The notes below the pieces were generated by a model. That model was not told where the DNA came from. It saw nothing but the letters and a program-made list of their open reading frames with translations, and searched no databases. Of a stretch of DNA of 28,491 nucleotides, positions 22,921 through 27,978 are shown in pieces. The stretch comes from a virus. The DNA is taken from the IMG/VR virus record IMGVR_UViG_3300037488_000954, positions 1 through 28,491 of that record; one strand, written 5' to 3'. The translations under genes were made by a program, and so were the position numbers. Numbering within the stretch: position 1 is the first letter of the stretch; each line of letters starts with the position of its first letter.

Positions 22921-23271
22921 CTAAGCGCTGCGCATAGCTTCGCGGATCATCCGCGCATACACAGCCGCGTGGTTGTCAATATGCGAGCGCTTATCGTGCT
23001 CGGCTTCGAGGATGCTGGCGGCTGCGCTCATGCCGTCGCGGCGGGCGGCGTCGCGCTCGGCTGTCAGTCGGGCTATCGTCGTGCGAGCTTCCCATAGCGC
23101 CGTCACGGTGACAGAGATGCTTGAGCCTACGTATTCGCTTACGTCCATGGTGGTGCCCCGGCCTTTGAGCATGGCTTCGGCGACATCATGAGCGTGGCGA
23201 CTGGCGCCGCAAGTGTTCGCCGGAAAGTTTCGGGCTGCACGCATGCGCTTGATCAAGGTTTTGGTGCTCAC
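22921..23271 (-). CDS. Hypothetical helical protein (116 aa)
   Basis: The preferred start is GTG 23269-23271 with GGGAG eight bases upstream; the frame is open to 23286. It overlaps the upstream gene's stop as GTGA. The product is soluble and helical (LIKRMRAARNFPANTCGASR, TALWEARTTIARLTAERDAA, RIREAM-like end). No family recognised. It is the last gene of the minus-strand operon; its TAG directly abuts the TAG of the plus-strand holin gene. Confidence 0.68.
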   Translation of the reverse strand: MSTKTLIKRMRAARNFPANTCGASRHAHDVAEAMLKGRGTTMDVSEYVGSSISVTVTALWEARTTIARLTAERDAARRDGMSAAASILEAEHDKRSHIDNHAAVYARMIREAMRSA

Positions 23272-23609
23272 GACAAATACTCCCAAAAGTCACTACGCGG
23301 CGACGGCACCCGCTGAAAGCTCTTGCGCAGTCCAACAAGCGCGGCCGACCATCCGCCACACTTCCAAGGCTTTCCGTCAGCTTCAATGCGGTAGGTGTCA
23401 ACGCGCCGCGTTCGGTACAGGTGCAGCGTGTGCGTCACCGGCTGGCCGCTGTCATAGTCGATCACGATGACCTCGCGGCGCAGCTCGGGCAGCGTCGGAG
23501 GGTACAGGCGAGGAGGCTTGTTCGCGTTTGACCGGTCGCGGCCACGGCGCATAGCTTCGAGCTTGCGCGCGTGGGCGGCCTGGCGCTTGGGGGATGGTTT
23601 GCGGTACAT
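23268..23609 (-). CDS. Hypothetical protein (113 aa)
   Basis: ATG 23607-23609 with AAGG upstream. The N-terminus is basic (YRKPSPKRQAAHARKLEAMR). The C-terminal half is a small mixed domain (VTHTLHLYRTRRVDTYRIEA then GKPWKCGGWSAALVGLRKSF), a pattern I have seen in proteobacterial phage proteins without a known function. It lies just left of the cassette array and is not bounded by attC-like sequence, so it is part of the phage backbone into which the array is set. Confidence 0.7.
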   Translation of the reverse strand: MYRKPSPKRQAAHARKLEAMRRGRDRSNANKPPRLYPPTLPELRREVIVIDYDSGQPVTHTLHLYRTRRVDTYRIEADGKPWKCGGWSAALVGLRKSFQRVPSPRSDFWEYLS

Positions 23610-23630
23610 GCAGACCTTGCACGGATTGGC

Positions 23631-23646
23631 TATAGCTTAGTTAGGC
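23631..23646 (+). other. Left boundary half-site of the array (GTTAGGC)
   Basis: GTTAGGC at 23640-23646 is preceded by AGCTTA (23633-23638) with no spacer and no left arm within 200 bases. It looks like the junction formed when the first cassette entered a GTT-containing target, or the remnant of a deleted attC or attI. The TAA of the first cassette gene lies in it. Confidence 0.6.
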
Positions 23647-24150
23647 CCCCACTCTGTGCAACACCCAGTCCAGCGCCGAAATCTCGGCCTCCATGTACTG
23701 GTTGCGCCGGTGGTGCGGAATGCTGCGCAAGTAGTCGTGCCGCGCCTGGAGCGTCTCGCGCTTGCGGCGCGGCATGTCCCATCGCGTGGTTTCGCACGGC
23801 GTCGGCGCCGTATCGAAAGCGTGTCCTTCTCTGCATGCCCGCCTCATTTGGTCACTGCCGCATGTCGTGGTGCGCGACCCGTCCGGGTGAATCACGGTCT
23901 GCGCATCGCAAGGCGTCACTTGCGCGCGCACCAGCTCTGCGAACCGCTCCAAGTGCTCCTGCGTCACTCCGTGGCAGCCCTCGCTGTACACACAGCTCGC
24001 CGCGCCGTGGTTGAGGTAGCTCACCACTCCAGCGGCCTGCGCCAGCCCTTCCAAGTCACCAGGGCAGCCCCCGTGATCCACCCGGTTAGTCGCGGACGCA
24101 CCCGTAGTCCCGCGTGGCAGGGGCTGCCCTAGTGTCTCGTCGTGTGTCAT
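23641..24150 (-). CDS. Cassette 1 protein, hypothetical (169 aa)
   Basis: ATG 24148-24150 has GAGAGGAAGCGACGA upstream; the stop TAA (23641-23643) is the first triplet of the cassette. The product has a Cys/His-containing first half (SYLNHGAASCVYSEGCHGVT, later TTTCGSDQMRRACREGHAFD) and a C-terminal helical segment (RRKRETLQARHDYLRSIPHH, MEAEISALDWVLHRV). Five or six cysteines suggest metal binding. No family recognised. It is the largest cassette gene and last of the array in transcription order. Confidence 0.75.
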   Translation of the reverse strand: MTHDETLGQPLPRGTTGASATNRVDHGGCPGDLEGLAQAAGVVSYLNHGAASCVYSEGCHGVTQEHLERFAELVRAQVTPCDAQTVIHPDGSRTTTCGSDQMRRACREGHAFDTAPTPCETTRWDMPRRKRETLQARHDYLRSIPHHRRNQYMEAEISALDWVLHRVGA

Positions 24151-24178
24151 TCGTCGCTTCCTCTCACTTCGGCCACAG

Positions 24179-24264
24179 GCCTAACCTTTCGCACAAGCTG
24201 ACCGCGGGTGGCGGTCAGCGCTCCGGCCACGCACAAGCGCGGCAGCTTTCCTCAATCGTTAGGC
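24179..24264 (+). other. attC A (86 bp)
   Basis: R'' GCCTAAC (24179-24185), CTTTC, L'' GCACAAGC, a stem with the perfect hairpin GCTGACCGC/GCGGTCAGC, L' GCTTTCC, TCAATC, R' GTTAGGC (24258-24264). L'' and L' differ from most sites here but match attC G, so A and G form a subfamily. Confidence 0.88.
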
Positions 24265-24651
24265 CGCTTGCTGCGGGCCACGGTCTTCGCACTCGTCGCG
24301 CAGCGGCGAACCCATCAATCCGTACTTGCGCAGCAGTTCCACGGCGCGACTTGGCAAGTCGCCAGGTTTCGGCGCATGGGGCGTGTACCGCTTCAGACTA
24401 CTAGTCAGCATGCGAATCATCATCGCCAGTTCTTCGCGTTCGCGGTACACATGCTCCACGTCAGCGAAGCGCACCAGCGCATGCACCAGGCCATCCGGCG
24501 CGCTCACTTCCAGCGCCACATGCTCGCCCTTGTATAGCCCGCCCTGCGCGCTCTCAAACCCTCGCAGTGGCACGCCATAGGCGTTCTCAAACGGCGGCCT
24601 AACATGGCGCTCAAGCGGAGCCCCAACGGCCCCTGTGATTTCAGTGTCCAT
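24259..24651 (-). CDS. Cassette 2 protein, starts inside attC B (130 aa)
   Basis: ATG 24649-24651 has a strong site AAAGGACGAGG directly upstream, and both lie in the loop of attC B. The first 18 codons therefore run through the L''-R'' arm of attC B (giving GAPLERHVRPPF). The rest includes VALEVSAPDGLVHALVRFAD, YREREELAMMIRMLTSSLKR and a C-terminal LLRKYGLMGSPLRDE. TAA 24259-24261 lies in the R' of attC A. No family recognised. An earlier, shorter start is possible, but no internal Met has a comparable ribosome binding site. Confidence 0.75.
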   Translation of the reverse strand: MDTEITGAVGAPLERHVRPPFENAYGVPLRGFESAQGGLYKGEHVALEVSAPDGLVHALVRFADVEHVYREREELAMMIRMLTSSLKRYTPHAPKPGDLPSRAVELLRKYGLMGSPLRDECEDRGPQQAA

Positions 24652-24701
24652 CCTCGTCCTTTCGTGCGGGCCGCTGGTGCCCGCTTAGCTCTACGTTAGG
24701 C
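24597..24701 (+). other. attC B (105 bp), loop holds a gene start
   Basis: R'' GCCTAAC (24597-24603), ATGGC, L'' GCTCAAGC, a ~20-bp imperfect stem (AAGCGG.GCCCC..CGGCCC against its complement GGGCCGCTGGTGCCCGCTT), L' GCTTAGC, TCTAC, R' GTTAGGC (24695-24701). The ~30-base apical loop carries, on the minus strand, the ribosome binding site and ATG of the cassette 2 gene. Confidence 0.88.
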
Positions 24702-24998
24702 CACCGCTTCAAGCGGGTCGCCGTCGTCATACACGCGCTCCGGTTCTTCCTCGGGCGGCGGCGGCTCCATGCCGTGCGGGCAGTGGCGCACGCAGTCAGC
24801 ATGCCCAGGCCCGCCCGGCTCGCCGTAGTCGTACTCTCCGGTCTTCAGGTCCACGTACACCGCCTGTGAGCAGTTGTCCCAATCCAGCGGGCAGCGCCTG
24901 CCGCCTTCGGTCTTCCACAGCCGCGCGCCGTGGCTCACCGCGTCATCGGCGCCGGCCAGTTGCATCGCGGCGGTTATGAGTTCGTTCAGTGCTTGCAT
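24696..24998 (-). CDS. Cassette 3 protein, acidic Cys/His-rich (100 aa)
   Basis: ATG 24996-24998 has GAGAGGACCAAGGC upstream. The frame is open further back through attC C, but no comparable site exists there. The product begins MQALNELITAAMQLAGADDA, has CPLDWDNCSQAVYVDLKTGE, then HADCVRHCPHGM (C-x3-H-C-x2-H), and a Pro/Glu tail ending DDGDPLEAVA. A small metal-binding fold is possible. The stop TAA is the first triplet of the cassette. Function unknown. Confidence 0.78.
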   Translation of the reverse strand: MQALNELITAAMQLAGADDAVSHGARLWKTEGGRRCPLDWDNCSQAVYVDLKTGEYDYGEPGGPGHADCVRHCPHGMEPPPPEEEPERVYDDGDPLEAVA

Positions 24999-25027
24999 GC
25001 CTTGGTCCTCTCGCTTCGGAAACAGTG

Positions 25028-25096
25028 GCCTAACTGGTCGCTCAAGCGGAGTCGTCACGGAGTACCGTGCCGCCCCGCTTAGCTCCAACGTTCGGC
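25028..25096 (+). other. attC C (69 bp), variant R' GTTCGGC
   Basis: R'' GCCTAAC (25028-25034), TGGTC, L'' GCTCAAGC, stem CACGG/CCGTG closed by AGTA, L' GCTTAGC, TCCAAC, R' GTTCGGC (25090-25096). The R' differs by A to C from the other sites, which removes the usual TAA stop on the minus strand. Confidence 0.86.
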
Positions 25097-25302
25097 TTCT
25101 GCTCGTAGCGCGTGACGGGGAAAAACATATCGCAGCCGCAGGCGATGCAGTACATCCAGTCTTCCCACCCGCCAATGCCTTTGCTGTCACCTGTGTGCAG
25201 GCGCTCGCTGCTGGTCCACCACGCGCCGCATTCGGTGCAGTGGTCAGGCGCGTCCGACTCGCCAAACTGGCCTCGGTAGTTCGCTGATGTTTTGTCCAGC
25301 AC
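25042..25302 (-). CDS. Cassette 4 protein, zinc-ribbon-like, reads through attC C (86 aa)
   Basis: GTG 25300-25302 with AAGGAG six bases upstream; in-frame GTG 25333-25335 has no such site. Two CxxC pairs (HCTECGAWW and YCIACGC) about 30 residues apart indicate a zinc ribbon. Because R' of attC C is GTTCGGC rather than GTTAGGC, no TAA occurs at the cassette edge, and translation continues through the attC stem (NVGAKRGGTVLRDDSA) until TGA 25042-25044. The last 16-18 residues are thus encoded by the recombination site. No family beyond zinc ribbon. Confidence 0.78.
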   Translation of the reverse strand: MLDKTSANYRGQFGESDAPDHCTECGAWWTSSERLHTGDSKGIGGWEDWMYCIACGCDMFFPVTRYEQKPNVGAKRGGTVLRDDSA

Positions 25303-25336
25303 TCGTCGCTCCTTGAATTCACGCGCTCCGGCCACG

Positions 25337-25388
25337 GCCGAACTACTCGCCCAAGCCGACCTTCGGCGGCTTAGCTCAAACGTTAGGC
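25337..25388 (+). other. attC D (52 bp), variant R'' GCCGAAC
   Basis: R'' GCCGAAC (25337-25343), TACTC, L'' GCCCAAGC, short stem, L' GCTTAGC, TCAAAC, R' GTTAGGC (25382-25388). Its R'' is the exact complement of the variant R' GTTCGGC at the other end of the same cassette. It is the shortest site and the closest to the textbook attC. Confidence 0.9.
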
Positions 25389-25814
25389 CCGCAGGTCATC
25401 CGGGTGCATCTCCAGCAGCCTTGCCATCGGCTCCCGCAGCGTGTCCACGGCGGCGCGCAACTCGGCCAGCTTTTGCTCAAGCCCGGCAATGCGCGCTTCT
25501 TCCTCAGTCATCCCGTCGGCCACGTTGGCGGCTGCGTAGTAGGAAGCGTCATCGACGTACCGCGTCAGCGCCACGTTGGCGGCTGCGTAGTAGGAAGCGT
25601 CATCGACGTACCGCGTCAGCGAGCAATAGCCGCTCAGGCTGTAGCCGATCAACTGAGCGAATTGCTGGCGGTCGTCGTCGGTGAAATCCAGCACTGCCAG
25701 CGCGTTCATGTCGCAAGTCGGGTGCGTGTCCAGCAGGTGCTGCACGATCTTGTTCGCCTTAAAGCGCACCACGCCCTGCGCGTCGGTTGCCAGCGGCTGT
25801 ATCGGGTTCTTCAC
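25383..25814 (-). CDS. Cassette 5 protein with tandem 17-residue duplication (143 aa)
   Basis: GTG 25812-25814 is six bases from AGGAGA; the in-frame GTG at 25818-25820 directly abuts it and is less likely. The product starts VKNPIQPLATDAQGVVRFKA, continues LDFTDDDRQQFAQLIGYSLSG, then carries LTRYVDDASYYAAANVA twice in a row, and ends with a coiled coil (EEARIAGLEQKLAELRAAVD). The N-terminal region resembles a phage hypothetical family recurring in GC-rich proteobacterial phages. The stop TAA is the first triplet of the cassette. Confidence 0.8.
   Translation of the reverse strand: MKNPIQPLATDAQGVVRFKANKIVQHLLDTHPTCDMNALAVLDFTDDDRQQFAQLIGYSLSGYCSLTRYVDDASYYAAANVALTRYVDDASYYAAANVADGMTEEEARIAGLEQKLAELRAAVDTLREPMARLLEMHPDDLRA
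25519..25620 (-). repeat. Perfect 51-bp tandem duplication inside cassette 5 gene
   Basis: 25519-25569 and 25570-25620 are identical, in frame, and add 17 residues. No mismatch means it is recent or maintained by conversion. It could also be an assembly artefact, but each copy is short enough for one read to span. Confidence 0.95.
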
Positions 25815-25841
25815 TTTCACTCTCCTAGTTGGTCACGGCGG

Positions 25842-25905
25842 GCCTAACCCCGCCAATCAAGCGGACCGGCCGCAAGCGTCCGGCCGCTTATCGGCAACGT
25901 TAGGC
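25842..25905 (+). other. attC E (64 bp)
   Basis: R'' GCCTAAC (25842-25848), CCCGCC, L'' AATCAAGC, near-perfect stem GCGG(a)CCGGcCGC against GCGTCCGGCCGC with one bulged A, L' GCTTATC, GGCAAC, R' GTTAGGC (25899-25905). Confidence 0.88.
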
Positions 25906-25912
25906 CCCGAAC

Positions 25913-26119
25913 TCACTCGTCCGTCACCGTCGCAGTGCGCGGCACTACGTAAGTGATCTCGCTCACGTTGAGCATCAGCCCCGGCTCATAGAACCATTGA
26001 ACCGGCGCGTTTGGCATCTTGTTTACGCCGGCCACAATGTCCTTGACCAGTTGCACGCCATCGTTCACCTTGATCGCCAGGCGTTCGCCGCTGCGAAAGC
26101 CAATGAAGTAGTCCGCCAT
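25913..26119 (-). CDS. Cassette 6 protein, hypothetical (68 aa)
   Basis: ATG 26117-26119 with AAGGAAATC upstream. The stop TGA (25913-25915) lies seven bases inside the cassette edge, so this gene does not use the R' stop. The product is a small mixed alpha/beta protein (MADYFIGFRSGERLAIKVND, VQLVKDIVAGVNKM, WFYEPGLMLNVSEITYVVPR). No family recognised. It sits alone in its cassette with standard spacing after attC F. Confidence 0.75.
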   Translation of the reverse strand: MADYFIGFRSGERLAIKVNDGVQLVKDIVAGVNKMPNAPVQWFYEPGLMLNVSEITYVVPRTATVTDE

Positions 26120-26144
26120 GATTTCCTTGCTTCGGAGCCACGGG

Positions 26145-26246
26145 GCCTAACCCGTCGCTCAAGTTGAGAGCCAACGGCGTCCACCGCCGTCGCGCTCCGG
26201 TTATTTGGGTGCCGCCGTTGTCTCCAACTTAGCTCCCACGTTAGGG
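26145..26246 (+). other. attC F (102 bp), variant R' GTTAGGG
   Basis: R'' GCCTAAC (26145-26151), CCGTC, L'' GCTCAAGT, long imperfect stem (AAGTTG.AGA..CAACGGCG against its complement), L' ACTTAGC, TCCCAC, R' GTTAGGG (26240-26246). L'' and L' carry a compensating C-to-T / G-to-A pair compared with other sites, keeping the stem paired. Confidence 0.88.
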
Positions 26247-26423
26247 CGCACGCGGCGGGCGCAGCTTGTGCGCCTTCAGCAGTGCGGCTTCGATCAACTC
26301 AGCAGGCGTCTCGGCCTGCTCTGCCATCCACTGCACCAGCCATTCAGGCAAGCGCAGCGGCACGTTTACCCGGCGCAGGCCGGGCGGGGCGGGGGGGCGA
26401 CCCCCTTTGCTTTTGTTGTTCAT
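26241..26423 (-). CDS. Cassette 7b protein, ribbon-helix-helix-like (60 aa)
   Basis: ATG 26421-26423 overlaps the upstream stop as ATGA. A basic N-terminus (MNNKSKGGRPPAPPG) precedes RRVNVPLRLPEWLVQWMAEQ and TPAELIEAALLKAHKL. This is a strand followed by two helices, as in Arc/CopG-type DNA-binding proteins. TAA 26241-26243 lies in the R' of attC F. A transcriptional regulator or antitoxin-like role is possible; similarity is only at the level of pattern. Confidence 0.72.
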   Translation of the reverse strand: MNNKSKGGRPPAPPGLRRVNVPLRLPEWLVQWMAEQAETPAELIEAALLKAHKLRPPRAP

Positions 26424-26701
26424 GCTGCGTAGCGGGTGAAGATGCCGGTAGCGCCGCAGGCGAAGCACTCGCCGCCCTTGCGGTGCTGGAACTGTGGCAG
26501 GTAGCCGCGGCCAGCGCACTTGGGGCAGGCGTTGGCGGCCTTTGCGGCGGCGCGTGCTGCGGTGTCGGCCTTCACCGCAGCGATGCGGGCTGCTTCGACA
26601 GCGCGGGCGGCTTCCATGTCGGCGGCAACTTCGGCGGCGGTGCGGGTCTCGCCAGCGAACAGGGCTGCGAGGAAGTCGATTTCGTTTGCTGCGGTGTTCA
26701 T
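26420..26701 (-). CDS. Cassette 7a protein, DnaJ-type zinc-finger protein (93 aa)
   Basis: ATG 26699-26701 has only a weak ribosome binding site but a strong promoter 30-60 bases upstream. The product has an Ala-rich helix (AARAVEAARIAAVKADTAAR) and then CPKCAGRGYLPQF with CFACGATGIF, two C-x2-C-x-G-x-G repeats as in DnaJ zinc centres. Such small phage proteins are widespread; function is unknown. It is the first gene of a two-gene cassette, coupled to the RHH-like gene by ATGA. Confidence 0.82.
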   Translation of the reverse strand: MNTAANEIDFLAALFAGETRTAAEVAADMEAARAVEAARIAAVKADTAARAAAKAANACPKCAGRGYLPQFQHRKGGECFACGATGIFTRYAA

Positions 26702-26723
26702 GTTGTTTGCTCTGGGGTTTTCT

Positions 26724-26765
26724 GTTGCGATGTAGTTACTGTAGCACAGCAACAGCCAGCGTCAA
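26724..26765 (-). promoter_or_regulatory. Promoter P3 inside cassette 7 (sigma70 plus shared start motif)
   Basis: On the minus strand: TTGACG (26760-26765), 16 bases, TACAGT (26738-26743), two bases, CTACATCGCAAC (26724-26735). The -10 and 12-base start-site motif match P1 and P2 on the plus strand, with the same two-base spacer. Unlike those, it has a good -35 hexamer and no GGGTTTGTCC element. It drives the cassette 7 gene pair and possibly all cassettes downstream. Confidence 0.72.
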
Positions 26766-26811
26766 CAACTATTTTGTAACACGCAAACATGGCCGCCCTT
26801 CGGCACCAGCG

Positions 26812-26872
26812 CCCTAACCCCTTCGCACAAGCTGACACGCCTGAGGCGTGCAGCTTTCCTCAAGCGTTAGGC
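26812..26872 (+). other. attC G (61 bp), variant R'' CCCTAAC
   Basis: R'' CCCTAAC (26812-26818), CCCTTC, L'' GCACAAGC, hairpin CACGCC/GGCGTG, L' GCTTTCC, TCAAGC, R' GTTAGGC (26866-26872). Its R'' is the exact complement of the R' GTTAGGG that begins the same cassette. Confidence 0.88.
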
Positions 26873-27160
26873 ATCACTATCCACCAGCGGCGCCATCTTG
26901 TCGGTTTTGCACATCCACAGGCTGCATCTCGGGCAAAGTTCTCCGCTGTAGTCGCGCGGCAGTCTCTGCATCGCGCACTGCCTGAAAATGTGCGTGAACT
27001 CTCCGCAGCCGCAAGGCGCGTGGCCTTGCTTGTATTCGTCGGCCGTCATCGGTCTAGCTTGCATTTCCGTATCGCCACCTTCTTTGCAGTGATGCCTAAC
27101 CCCTCGCTCAAGCTGACCCGCTACGGCAGTCTTTGCGGGCTCACTCCGGTCATTGTTCAT
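26867..27160 (-). CDS. Cassette 8 protein, Cys-rich, starts inside attC H (97 aa)
   Basis: ATG 27158-27160 follows CGGAGGGAAC, both in the loop of attC H; the first ~25 codons cross the attC arm (TAVAGQLERGVRHH). An alternative ATG at 27062-27064 (MQARPMTADEYKQG) lies outside the attC but has a poorer site. The body is Cys-rich (HAPCGCGEF, RQCAM, LCPRCSLWMC), probably a zinc-binding domain. TAA 26867-26869 is the first triplet of the cassette. No family recognised. Confidence 0.72.
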   Translation of the reverse strand: MNNDRSEPAKTAVAGQLERGVRHHCKEGGDTEMQARPMTADEYKQGHAPCGCGEFTHIFRQCAMQRLPRDYSGELCPRCSLWMCKTDKMAPLVDSDA

Positions 27161-27219
27161 GTTCCCTCCGTGCGCCCGCAAAGCCTTCCTCCGCGGGCAG
27201 CTTAGCTCGCACGTTAGGC
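27094..27219 (+). other. attC H (126 bp), loop holds a gene start
   Basis: R'' GCCTAAC (27094-27100), CCCTC, L'' GCTCAAGC, long imperfect stem (AGCTG(A)CCCGC...CTTTGCGGGC against its complement), L' GCTTAGC, TCGCAC, R' GTTAGGC (27213-27219). Spacers (5 and 6) and the extra C match the classical class 1 attC layout. The ~33-base loop contains the start of the cassette 8 gene. Confidence 0.9.
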
Positions 27220-27516
27220 CCGCAAAAGCTCGCCCAGCGCATGCAGAGCATCAGGAAGGTCATCGTAGCCCGCCGTTACGGCGCAGTGCGCGGCAGATCG
27301 CCACCGCTCGCGCTCCAGCGCAACCGCGCGCGCCAATGCCTTCTCGGCCTCGATGCGGATGCACACGGCGTAAGAAACGCCAGGCGGCTGGTGCAGCGTC
27401 AAGCGGCCGTTCTGATACCAGCCAACCGTAGGCGCGTCCGGGCCTAACCCCTCGCTCAAACCGAGCCCCAAAGGCGGGGCAGGTTCGTGGTTCTCGTGGA
27501 TGTCTTTGGTGCTCAT
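27214..27516 (-). CDS. Cassette 9 protein, hypothetical (100 aa)
   Basis: ATG 27514-27516 with GGAGCGAG upstream. Codons 10-30 cross the left arm of the decayed attC I (LGLGLSEGLGPDAPT). The rest is mostly helical (YAVCIRIEAEKALARAVALE, RWRSAAHCAVTAGYDDLPDA). TAA 27214-27216 lies in R' of attC H. No family recognised. It is the first array gene in transcription order, 78 bases after ninB. Confidence 0.73.
   Translation of the reverse strand: MSTKDIHENHEPAPPLGLGLSEGLGPDAPTVGWYQNGRLTLHQPPGVSYAVCIRIEAEKALARAVALERERWRSAAHCAVTAGYDDLPDALHALGELLRA
27442..27496 (+). other. attC I, decayed terminal site (about 55 bp)
   Basis: The left arm is intact: R'' GCCTAAC (27442-27448), CCCTC, L'' GCTCAAAC. 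A stem AACC..GCCCC/GGGGC.GGTT follows, but the right arm reads GGTTCGTG then GTTCTCG (27490-27496), not GCTTAGC-N6-GTTAGGC. It marks the right end of the array and is probably inactive. Confidence 0.55.
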
Positions 27517-27594
27517 GTGTTTTCTCGCTCCGGCGCCGTGCCGCTGTTGCATCGACTCTACGCACAGTCCGCGCTCCGGCAATAGGTAAAAACC

Positions 27595-27978
27595 CTAGTC
27601 TCCGGCTGCGTGCAAGCGCTCAGCAGCTACAGCGTTGACAAACTCCAGAAACTCGCTAAACGTGCGCTTGTCCATCTTCGACGTGCGCGAGCCCAGCATG
27701 ACGACACCGCCATTCAGCCCCATGGCTAAGCGCGCGGTTTCTTGGCGGAAAGCAGCTGTAAGCAAATGCTTCCAGTCTTCCGGCTCCATCTTCACCATGC
27801 GCCCGTTTACAGGCCACTCAAGTTGCGCGGAAAACTCCGACAACAAAGCCCAGAGCGCCGCGTTTTGATCTAGCGAGCGGGTCGGCGGCTTGATGGTGAC
27901 GACGTGCCCATGCTCTGCCTGGCGGATGGCGTCCACAGCACGGCGGCGGGCTTCGTCGTGAACTAGAACAAACTTCAC
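27595..27978 (-). CDS. ninB: NinB-family recombination protein (127 aa)
   Basis: NinB (lambda Orf) binds single-stranded DNA and helps phage recombination through the RecFOR-type pathway. The product matches in length and pattern: SLDQNAALWALLSEFSAQLE, PVNGRMVKMEPEDWKHLLTA, RTSKMDKRTFSEFLEFVNAV. GTG 27976-27978 overlaps the upstream TGA (GTGA). It is flanked by Ref-like nuclease and SSB genes, forming a recombination module immediately upstream of the cassette array. Confidence 0.9.
   Translation of the reverse strand: MKFVLVHDEARRRAVDAIRQAEHGHVVTIKPPTRSLDQNAALWALLSEFSAQLEWPVNGRMVKMEPEDWKHLLTAAFRQETARLAMGLNGGVVMLGSRTSKMDKRTFSEFLEFVNAVAAERLHAAGD

Follow-up and report, generated by a model that had tools for sequence, protein, structure and literature searches.

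A phage-borne integron cassette array with genes inverted relative to their attC sites

Background

Can a row of small genes separated by palindromic sites in a phage genome be an integron array that exchanges its cassettes, and, if so, which integrase moves the cassettes and from which side are they read? These questions are raised by a linear, incomplete IMG/VR contig of 28.5 kb (28,491 nucleotides, hereafter the window), in which PHROG profiles identify TerL, portal and capsid genes and for which we found no similar DNA in annotated phages. A first-pass annotation described an integron cassette array inside this phage genome, and the analysis below bears this out.

In bacterial integrons, the orientation of cassettes is set by selectivity for the bottom strand of attC, which allows their expression from Pc, the promoter on the attI side (PMC11023631). 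A set of at least two attC sites with no integrase nearby is defined as a CALIN (PMC9024848). Qi et al. (2023) described 17 CALINs in phages, as well as a few complete integrons, and observed recombination by IntI1 for five of six attC sites tested (PMC9892861); the array is therefore not new merely by virtue of its location in a phage, as had been supposed.

Results

Eight attC sites are recognized by a model of bacterial sites

The array extends from 23640 to 27563 on the plus strand and comprises a solitary R' box (GTTAGGC at 23640, the first position of the interval given in the first-pass annotation), then eight attC sites that are complete and a ninth that is decayed (Table 1). To avoid circularity, we built the covariance model R3 from bacterial sites alone, namely 66 attC taken from chromosomal integrons. 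At E < 0.01, R3 finds exactly eight attC sites on the plus strand of the window, between 24179 and 27219 (41-87 bits; E 6e-10 to 4e-23), and its minus-strand signal is one weak echo of site B (19 bits). An Rfam search returned nothing relevant for these sites. Bottom-strand folding beats dinucleotide shuffles for seven of the eight (z -3.4 to -6.5), site D being weaker. Across 95 distinct attC sequences, taken from the window and from arrays related to it, pairing is seen in 95% of stem cells, and 208 cells show compensatory changes versus 44.5 in shuffles. The window sites thus combine a bottom-strand fold carrying an extrahelical base with a covarying stem, and the array falls within the definition of a CALIN. 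Judged from its sequence, the feature is a real integron cassette array.

Several details of the initial description require correction. Its RYYYAAC/GTTRRRY layout holds in general, but the strict form fails at site D (R'' GCCGAAC) and site C (R' GTTCGGC). Its nine units and eight attC sites were likewise recovered, but the decayed site I (E 0.08) lies inside the ORF of cassette 9. The nine cassettes hold ten ORFs, because cassette 7 contains two, and all ORFs are encoded on the minus strand, whereas the top strand of attC is the plus strand. A ribosome-binding site (RBS) and ATG inside attC, as in cassette 2, were seen in 14 cassettes using a loose motif. The ORF of cassette 5 includes a perfect, in-frame 51-bp tandem duplication at 25519-25621.

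Table 1. Positions of the array features and flanking genes in the window
Feature	Position	Strand	Evidence or remark
Conserved gene of unknown function, just past attI-like site	23268..23609	-	Conservation in relatives; no PHROG match
attI-like entry site CTTGCACGGATTGGCTATAGCTTA|GTTAGGC	23616..23646	+	Crossover G|TT, G = 23640; conserved with flank in related phages
Cassette 1 ORF, 169 aa	23641..24150	-	R' box supplies the stop codon, TAA
attC A	24179..24264	+	R3 47 bits, E 1e-11; fold z -3.4
Cassette 2 ORF, 130 aa	24259..24651	-	RBS AAAGGACGAGG and ATG within terminal loop of attC B
attC B	24597..24701	+	R3 64 bits, E 1.2e-16
Cassette 3 ORF, about 100 aa	24696..24998	-	Sequence; same frame as listed ORF 24696-25322
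attC C, R' variant GTTCGGC	25028..25096	+	R3 54 bits, E 1.1e-13
Cassette 4 ORF, 97 aa as listed	25042..25335	-	GTG near 25302 with RBS is the likelier start
attC D, R'' variant GCCGAAC	25337..25388	+	R3 49 bits, E 2.4e-12; fold z -1.7
Cassette 5 ORF, 145 aa	25383..25820	-	ORF list
attC E	25842..25905	+	R3 45 bits, E 3e-11; fold z -5.9
Cassette 6 ORF, 68 aa	25913..26119	-	ORF list
attC F	26145..26246	+	R3 67 bits, E 2.3e-17
Cassette 7 ORF a, about 60 aa	26241..26423	-	94% identical stretch is the first cassette, adjoining attI, in phage G008
Cassette 7 ORF b, 110 aa as listed	26420..26752	-	ATG at 26701; weak zinc-finger-like match
attC G	26812..26872	+	R3 41 bits, E 6e-10
Cassette 8 ORF, 104 aa as listed	26867..27181	-	ORF list; ATG at 27064 likely
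attC H	27094..27219	+	R3 87 bits, E 3.5e-23
Cassette 9 ORF, 100 aa	27214..27516	-	Sequence and frame; reads through decayed attC I
Decayed attC I	27442..27563	+	R'' and L'' retained; R3 12.5 bits, E 0.08
NinB/Orf recombination mediator, right array flank	27595..27978	-	phrog_72, E 3e-30

Cassettes behave as mobile units behind an attI-like boundary

Excision as a circle brings the R'' and R' boxes of one cassette together, and these pair, whereas an integrated attC joins the ends of two cassettes. Over 92 cassettes from 14 arrays, the ends of a given cassette match over a mean of 9.8 bp, the corresponding figure being 5.5 bp when the two boxes within an integrated attC are compared; the matching sum is 902, the highest of 20,000 permutations reaching 591. 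For the window alone, the observed end-matching was attained in 2 of 362,880 permutations, and it is visible by eye in cassettes 4 (GTTCGGC...GCCGAAC) and 7 (GTTAGGGCGC...GCGCCCTAAC). This signature is also present in bacterial integrons.

At this locus, between 2 and 12 attC sites were detected in related phage contigs. Relatives also conserve the left flank (23279-23640) up to G|TT, where similarity ends and each has another first cassette; over 5,467 bp no difference separates the three contigs L017, L018 and L019, which diverge at the equivalent of 23640 into three different first cassettes. Because similarity stops at G|TT and first cassettes differ, the left boundary, with 24-30 bp conserved among related phages and variable cassettes beyond, behaves in these sequence comparisons as an attI-like entry point. 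The window has its right boundary, TTAGGCATCATCATCC, in common with L001-L003; L004 differs by one substitution.

Cassette order has changed as well. Four cassettes, 99.6-100% identical, are common to contigs G008 and L041, where they occupy positions 1, 3, 4, 6 and 5, 6, 7, 1, respectively; identity breaks at G|TT, and neighbours differ unless two shared cassettes adjoin. The comparison of related phages thus indicates cassettes moving as units with a G|TT crossover, all contigs being metagenomic, none an isolate, so that strain mixtures could in principle yield chimeric joins. According to the first-pass annotation, a cassette array would be contradicted by a lack of attC covariance matches or by fixed elements with identical gene content in related phages: eight sites are matched by the bacterial-only model, and cassette content varies between relatives, as the annotation had anticipated.

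Some side observations concern the sites themselves. One gene body is found with different attC cores in L042 cassette 5 and L044 cassette 10 (96% identity), and another in L044 cassette 2 and L052 cassette 9 (89% identity), which suggests that attC may be exchanged at the R'' box; exchange by homologous recombination is ruled out by the single-base breakpoints. Four contigs (L030, L022, L028 and L037) have the 24-bp attI-like core followed by one cassette-like gene, whose stop is the TAA of R', and no attC; the backbone of L030, the one read in this group, carries DNA-polymerase and helicase genes. A tRNA-like similarity of the attI-like site (TAGCTCAGTTAG) was taken as coincidence, as ARAGORN finds no tRNA. 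Other phage lineages (L190, L195, L208, L214 and L044) possess attI-like sites of another sequence, for example GCCTAAAACAC|GTTGGGC, which we take to resemble the class 1 attI1 core.

Cassette genes are inverted

Canonical cassettes have an ORF co-directional with attC and reading away from attI. In the window and related arrays, all 72 scorable ORFs are inverted (72:0 inverted versus canonical). The ratio is 134:2 in 44 further phage arrays found by attC sequence pattern, and 43:1 among scorable cassettes of arrays beside viral intI genes; bacterial integrons (mostly Rubrivivax) treated by the same procedure give 13:72. The phage and bacterial distributions differ with Fisher p values from 2e-21 to 8e-42, orientation being scored by codon bias trained on the window's structural genes and counts including related, partly redundant contigs. 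Since bacterial integrons come out mostly canonical under the same procedure, method bias is not the cause of the inversion. The attC to the right of a gene body travels with that body; inversion is thus a property of the cassette, which carries attC upstream of its own gene. This uniform inversion, like the conserved attI-like boundary and the phage-encoded IntI of related arrays described below, was absent from the first-pass annotation.

Integron integrases in other phages

Profile search of the 28.5-kb window gave no TIGR02249 or PF00589 match, and no TIGR02249 match was obtained in any near relative, including the 38-42 kb contigs G004, G018 and G025. The position held by intI in other phages is taken in the window lineage by the gene at 23268-23609. 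An intI gene beside attI, the mark of a complete integron, is thus missing from the window and present in other phages with such arrays. Two phage contigs with DNA primase or TerL, portal and capsid genes (G046 and G054) encode IntI beside their arrays, and a search with IntI of this type yielded 43 viral loci. In 20 of these, duplicates removed, attC sites lie upstream of intI; the scorable cassettes of these loci give the 43:1 ratio above. Viral intI adjoins attI and is co-directional with the cassettes. In a tree of 68 IntI, whose bacterial sampling covers one order and a few others, 23 viral IntI form one clade (support 100/99) nested among bacterial IntI; IntI is present in 95 of the 250 genomes sampled from one bacterial order. 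Several viral IntI contigs have a phage integrase following intI, with tail or endolysin genes nearby. That these IMG/VR contigs are misbinned bacterial DNA is opposed by the TerL, portal, capsid, phage integrase, tail or endolysin genes that they carry.

The integrase of L016 was ruled out as an IntI, since the IntI model does not match this 329-aa recombinase. This phage-type tyrosine recombinase (L016:2399-3388) lies close to the attI-flank genes, which indicates that some members are temperate.

Cassette content and host

Among 147 cassette proteins, we recognized DNA methyltransferases, one Acb2/Tad1-type protein, an RNA ligase, a PAPS reductase and an HNH endonuclease; most have no known function. 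A set of 184 cassette proteins falls into 162 clusters, and cassette genes match many phage families. The gene with the Acb2/Tad1 hairpin domain is at L223:4498-4782; this family sponges defence signalling nucleotides. The attI-flank protein was absent from the bacterial genome collection, and no host was found by that route; the host probably belongs to the Burkholderiales.

Discussion

How the array may operate

The array is very probably an integron-type phage cassette array, in which single cassettes are swapped at G|TT between the attI-like site and attC, the inverted genes are read from the NinB side and the integrase most likely acts in trans. It would sit in the phage's leftward-reading operon of small genes, which would be read from NinB through the cassettes to attI, then to intI where present. 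New cassettes would enter attI as folded bottom strands, and cassettes would enter and leave singly by integrase-type recombination between attI (23640) and attC. Each would consist of an accessory gene of the phage, probably lacking a promoter, and of an attC of its own that precedes the gene. With attC upstream, ORFs read toward attI, so that all cassettes would be expressed from the NinB side and not from an attI-side promoter. Expression from the phage side would be limited to cassettes whose gene faces attI, hence a selection for the inverted form. The attC strand that recombines has the sense of the mRNA, and we may speculate that transcription exposes it. The benefit would lie in swapping accessory and counter-defence genes.

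As no intI was found in any fragment of the window lineage, recombination probably relies on an integron integrase in trans, which may come from a host chromosomal integron or from a co-resident or related phage with intI beside attI. Mobilization solely by a phage-encoded IntI, lying in the window phage outside the sequenced fragment, would fit with the incomplete linear contig and with the 23 viral IntI that form one clade and accompany inverted arrays; we judge it unlikely, given that the 38-42 kb relatives also lack IntI and that the place of intI is occupied by another gene.

The array might instead be a passive piece of a bacterial chromosomal integron, captured as a CALIN by illegitimate recombination and no longer recombining. 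Such a capture has been proposed for some phages (Qi et al. 2023; PMC9892861), and the phage attC share the class of bacterial chromosomal sites, intI is missing from the window and one site is decayed. A passive fragment is nevertheless very improbable in view of an ORF orientation opposite to that usual in bacterial cassettes, the differing first cassettes behind 5,467 bp of identical flank, the reordering of shared cassettes at G|TT and the many phage families matched by cassette genes. Fixed palindromic intergenic elements of the terminator or REP type, spread by homologous recombination or a transposase and attC-like by convergence, would explain hairpins between genes of one operon, some with an RBS and start codon in the loop. 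We find this scarcely credible: all eight sites are matched by the bacterial attC model with E below 1e-9, ends match by cassette and some viral arrays adjoin intI and attI. Breakpoints are also confined to a single base with unrelated sequence around it, for which homologous recombination offers no explanation, and cassette variation between phages leads us to reject fixed intergenic repeats.

Beyond an integron-type array in this phage, we consider it likely that phages own a class of integrons, with a dedicated IntI clade, attI-like sites fixed in an operon and inverted cassettes expressed by phage transcription. Accessory genes, including DNA methyltransferases, an Acb2/Tad1-type gene and RNA ligase, would be exchanged in this way, and lineages such as that of the window would have lost intI and use their array in trans. 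Inversion across dozens of phage contigs suggests an independent adaptation of the integron machinery to phage operons, by which accessory and counter-defence genes could be replaced quickly and singly. Integrons would thereby acquire a route of transfer through viruses, served by a separate lineage of integrases, and the large cassette pool may be mined for new anti-defence proteins.

Comparison with known systems

Phage CALINs were already known (PMC9892861); our other findings, among them the phage IntI clade and the inverted cassettes, were not found in the literature searched, with preprints and most subscription papers outside the search. Like the window, published phage CALINs such as that of Tetrasphaera phage TJE1 have attC sites and small cassettes and lack intI. 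However, the two sites of TJE1 detectable with our model are canonical, ORFs and attC both being on the plus strand, and window-type arrays are longer, with a conserved attI-like site and cassette turnover. The sedentary chromosomal integrons of Burkholderiales (Rubrivivax, Methyloversatilis) have attC of the same class, with scores as high as 82 bits under a model trained on phage sites, and share matched cassette ends and attI-attC geometry with the phage arrays. They differ in being chromosomal, with mostly canonical ORFs (72:13) that read away from attI and with intI outside the phage clade. Complete integrons of temperate phages (Vibrio anguillarum phages, P1; PMC9892861) likewise associate intI and attC in a phage, but they are segments of host or clinical integrons, whereas the viral IntI described here form a clade of their own and the arrays lie within a phage operon, with inverted cassettes.
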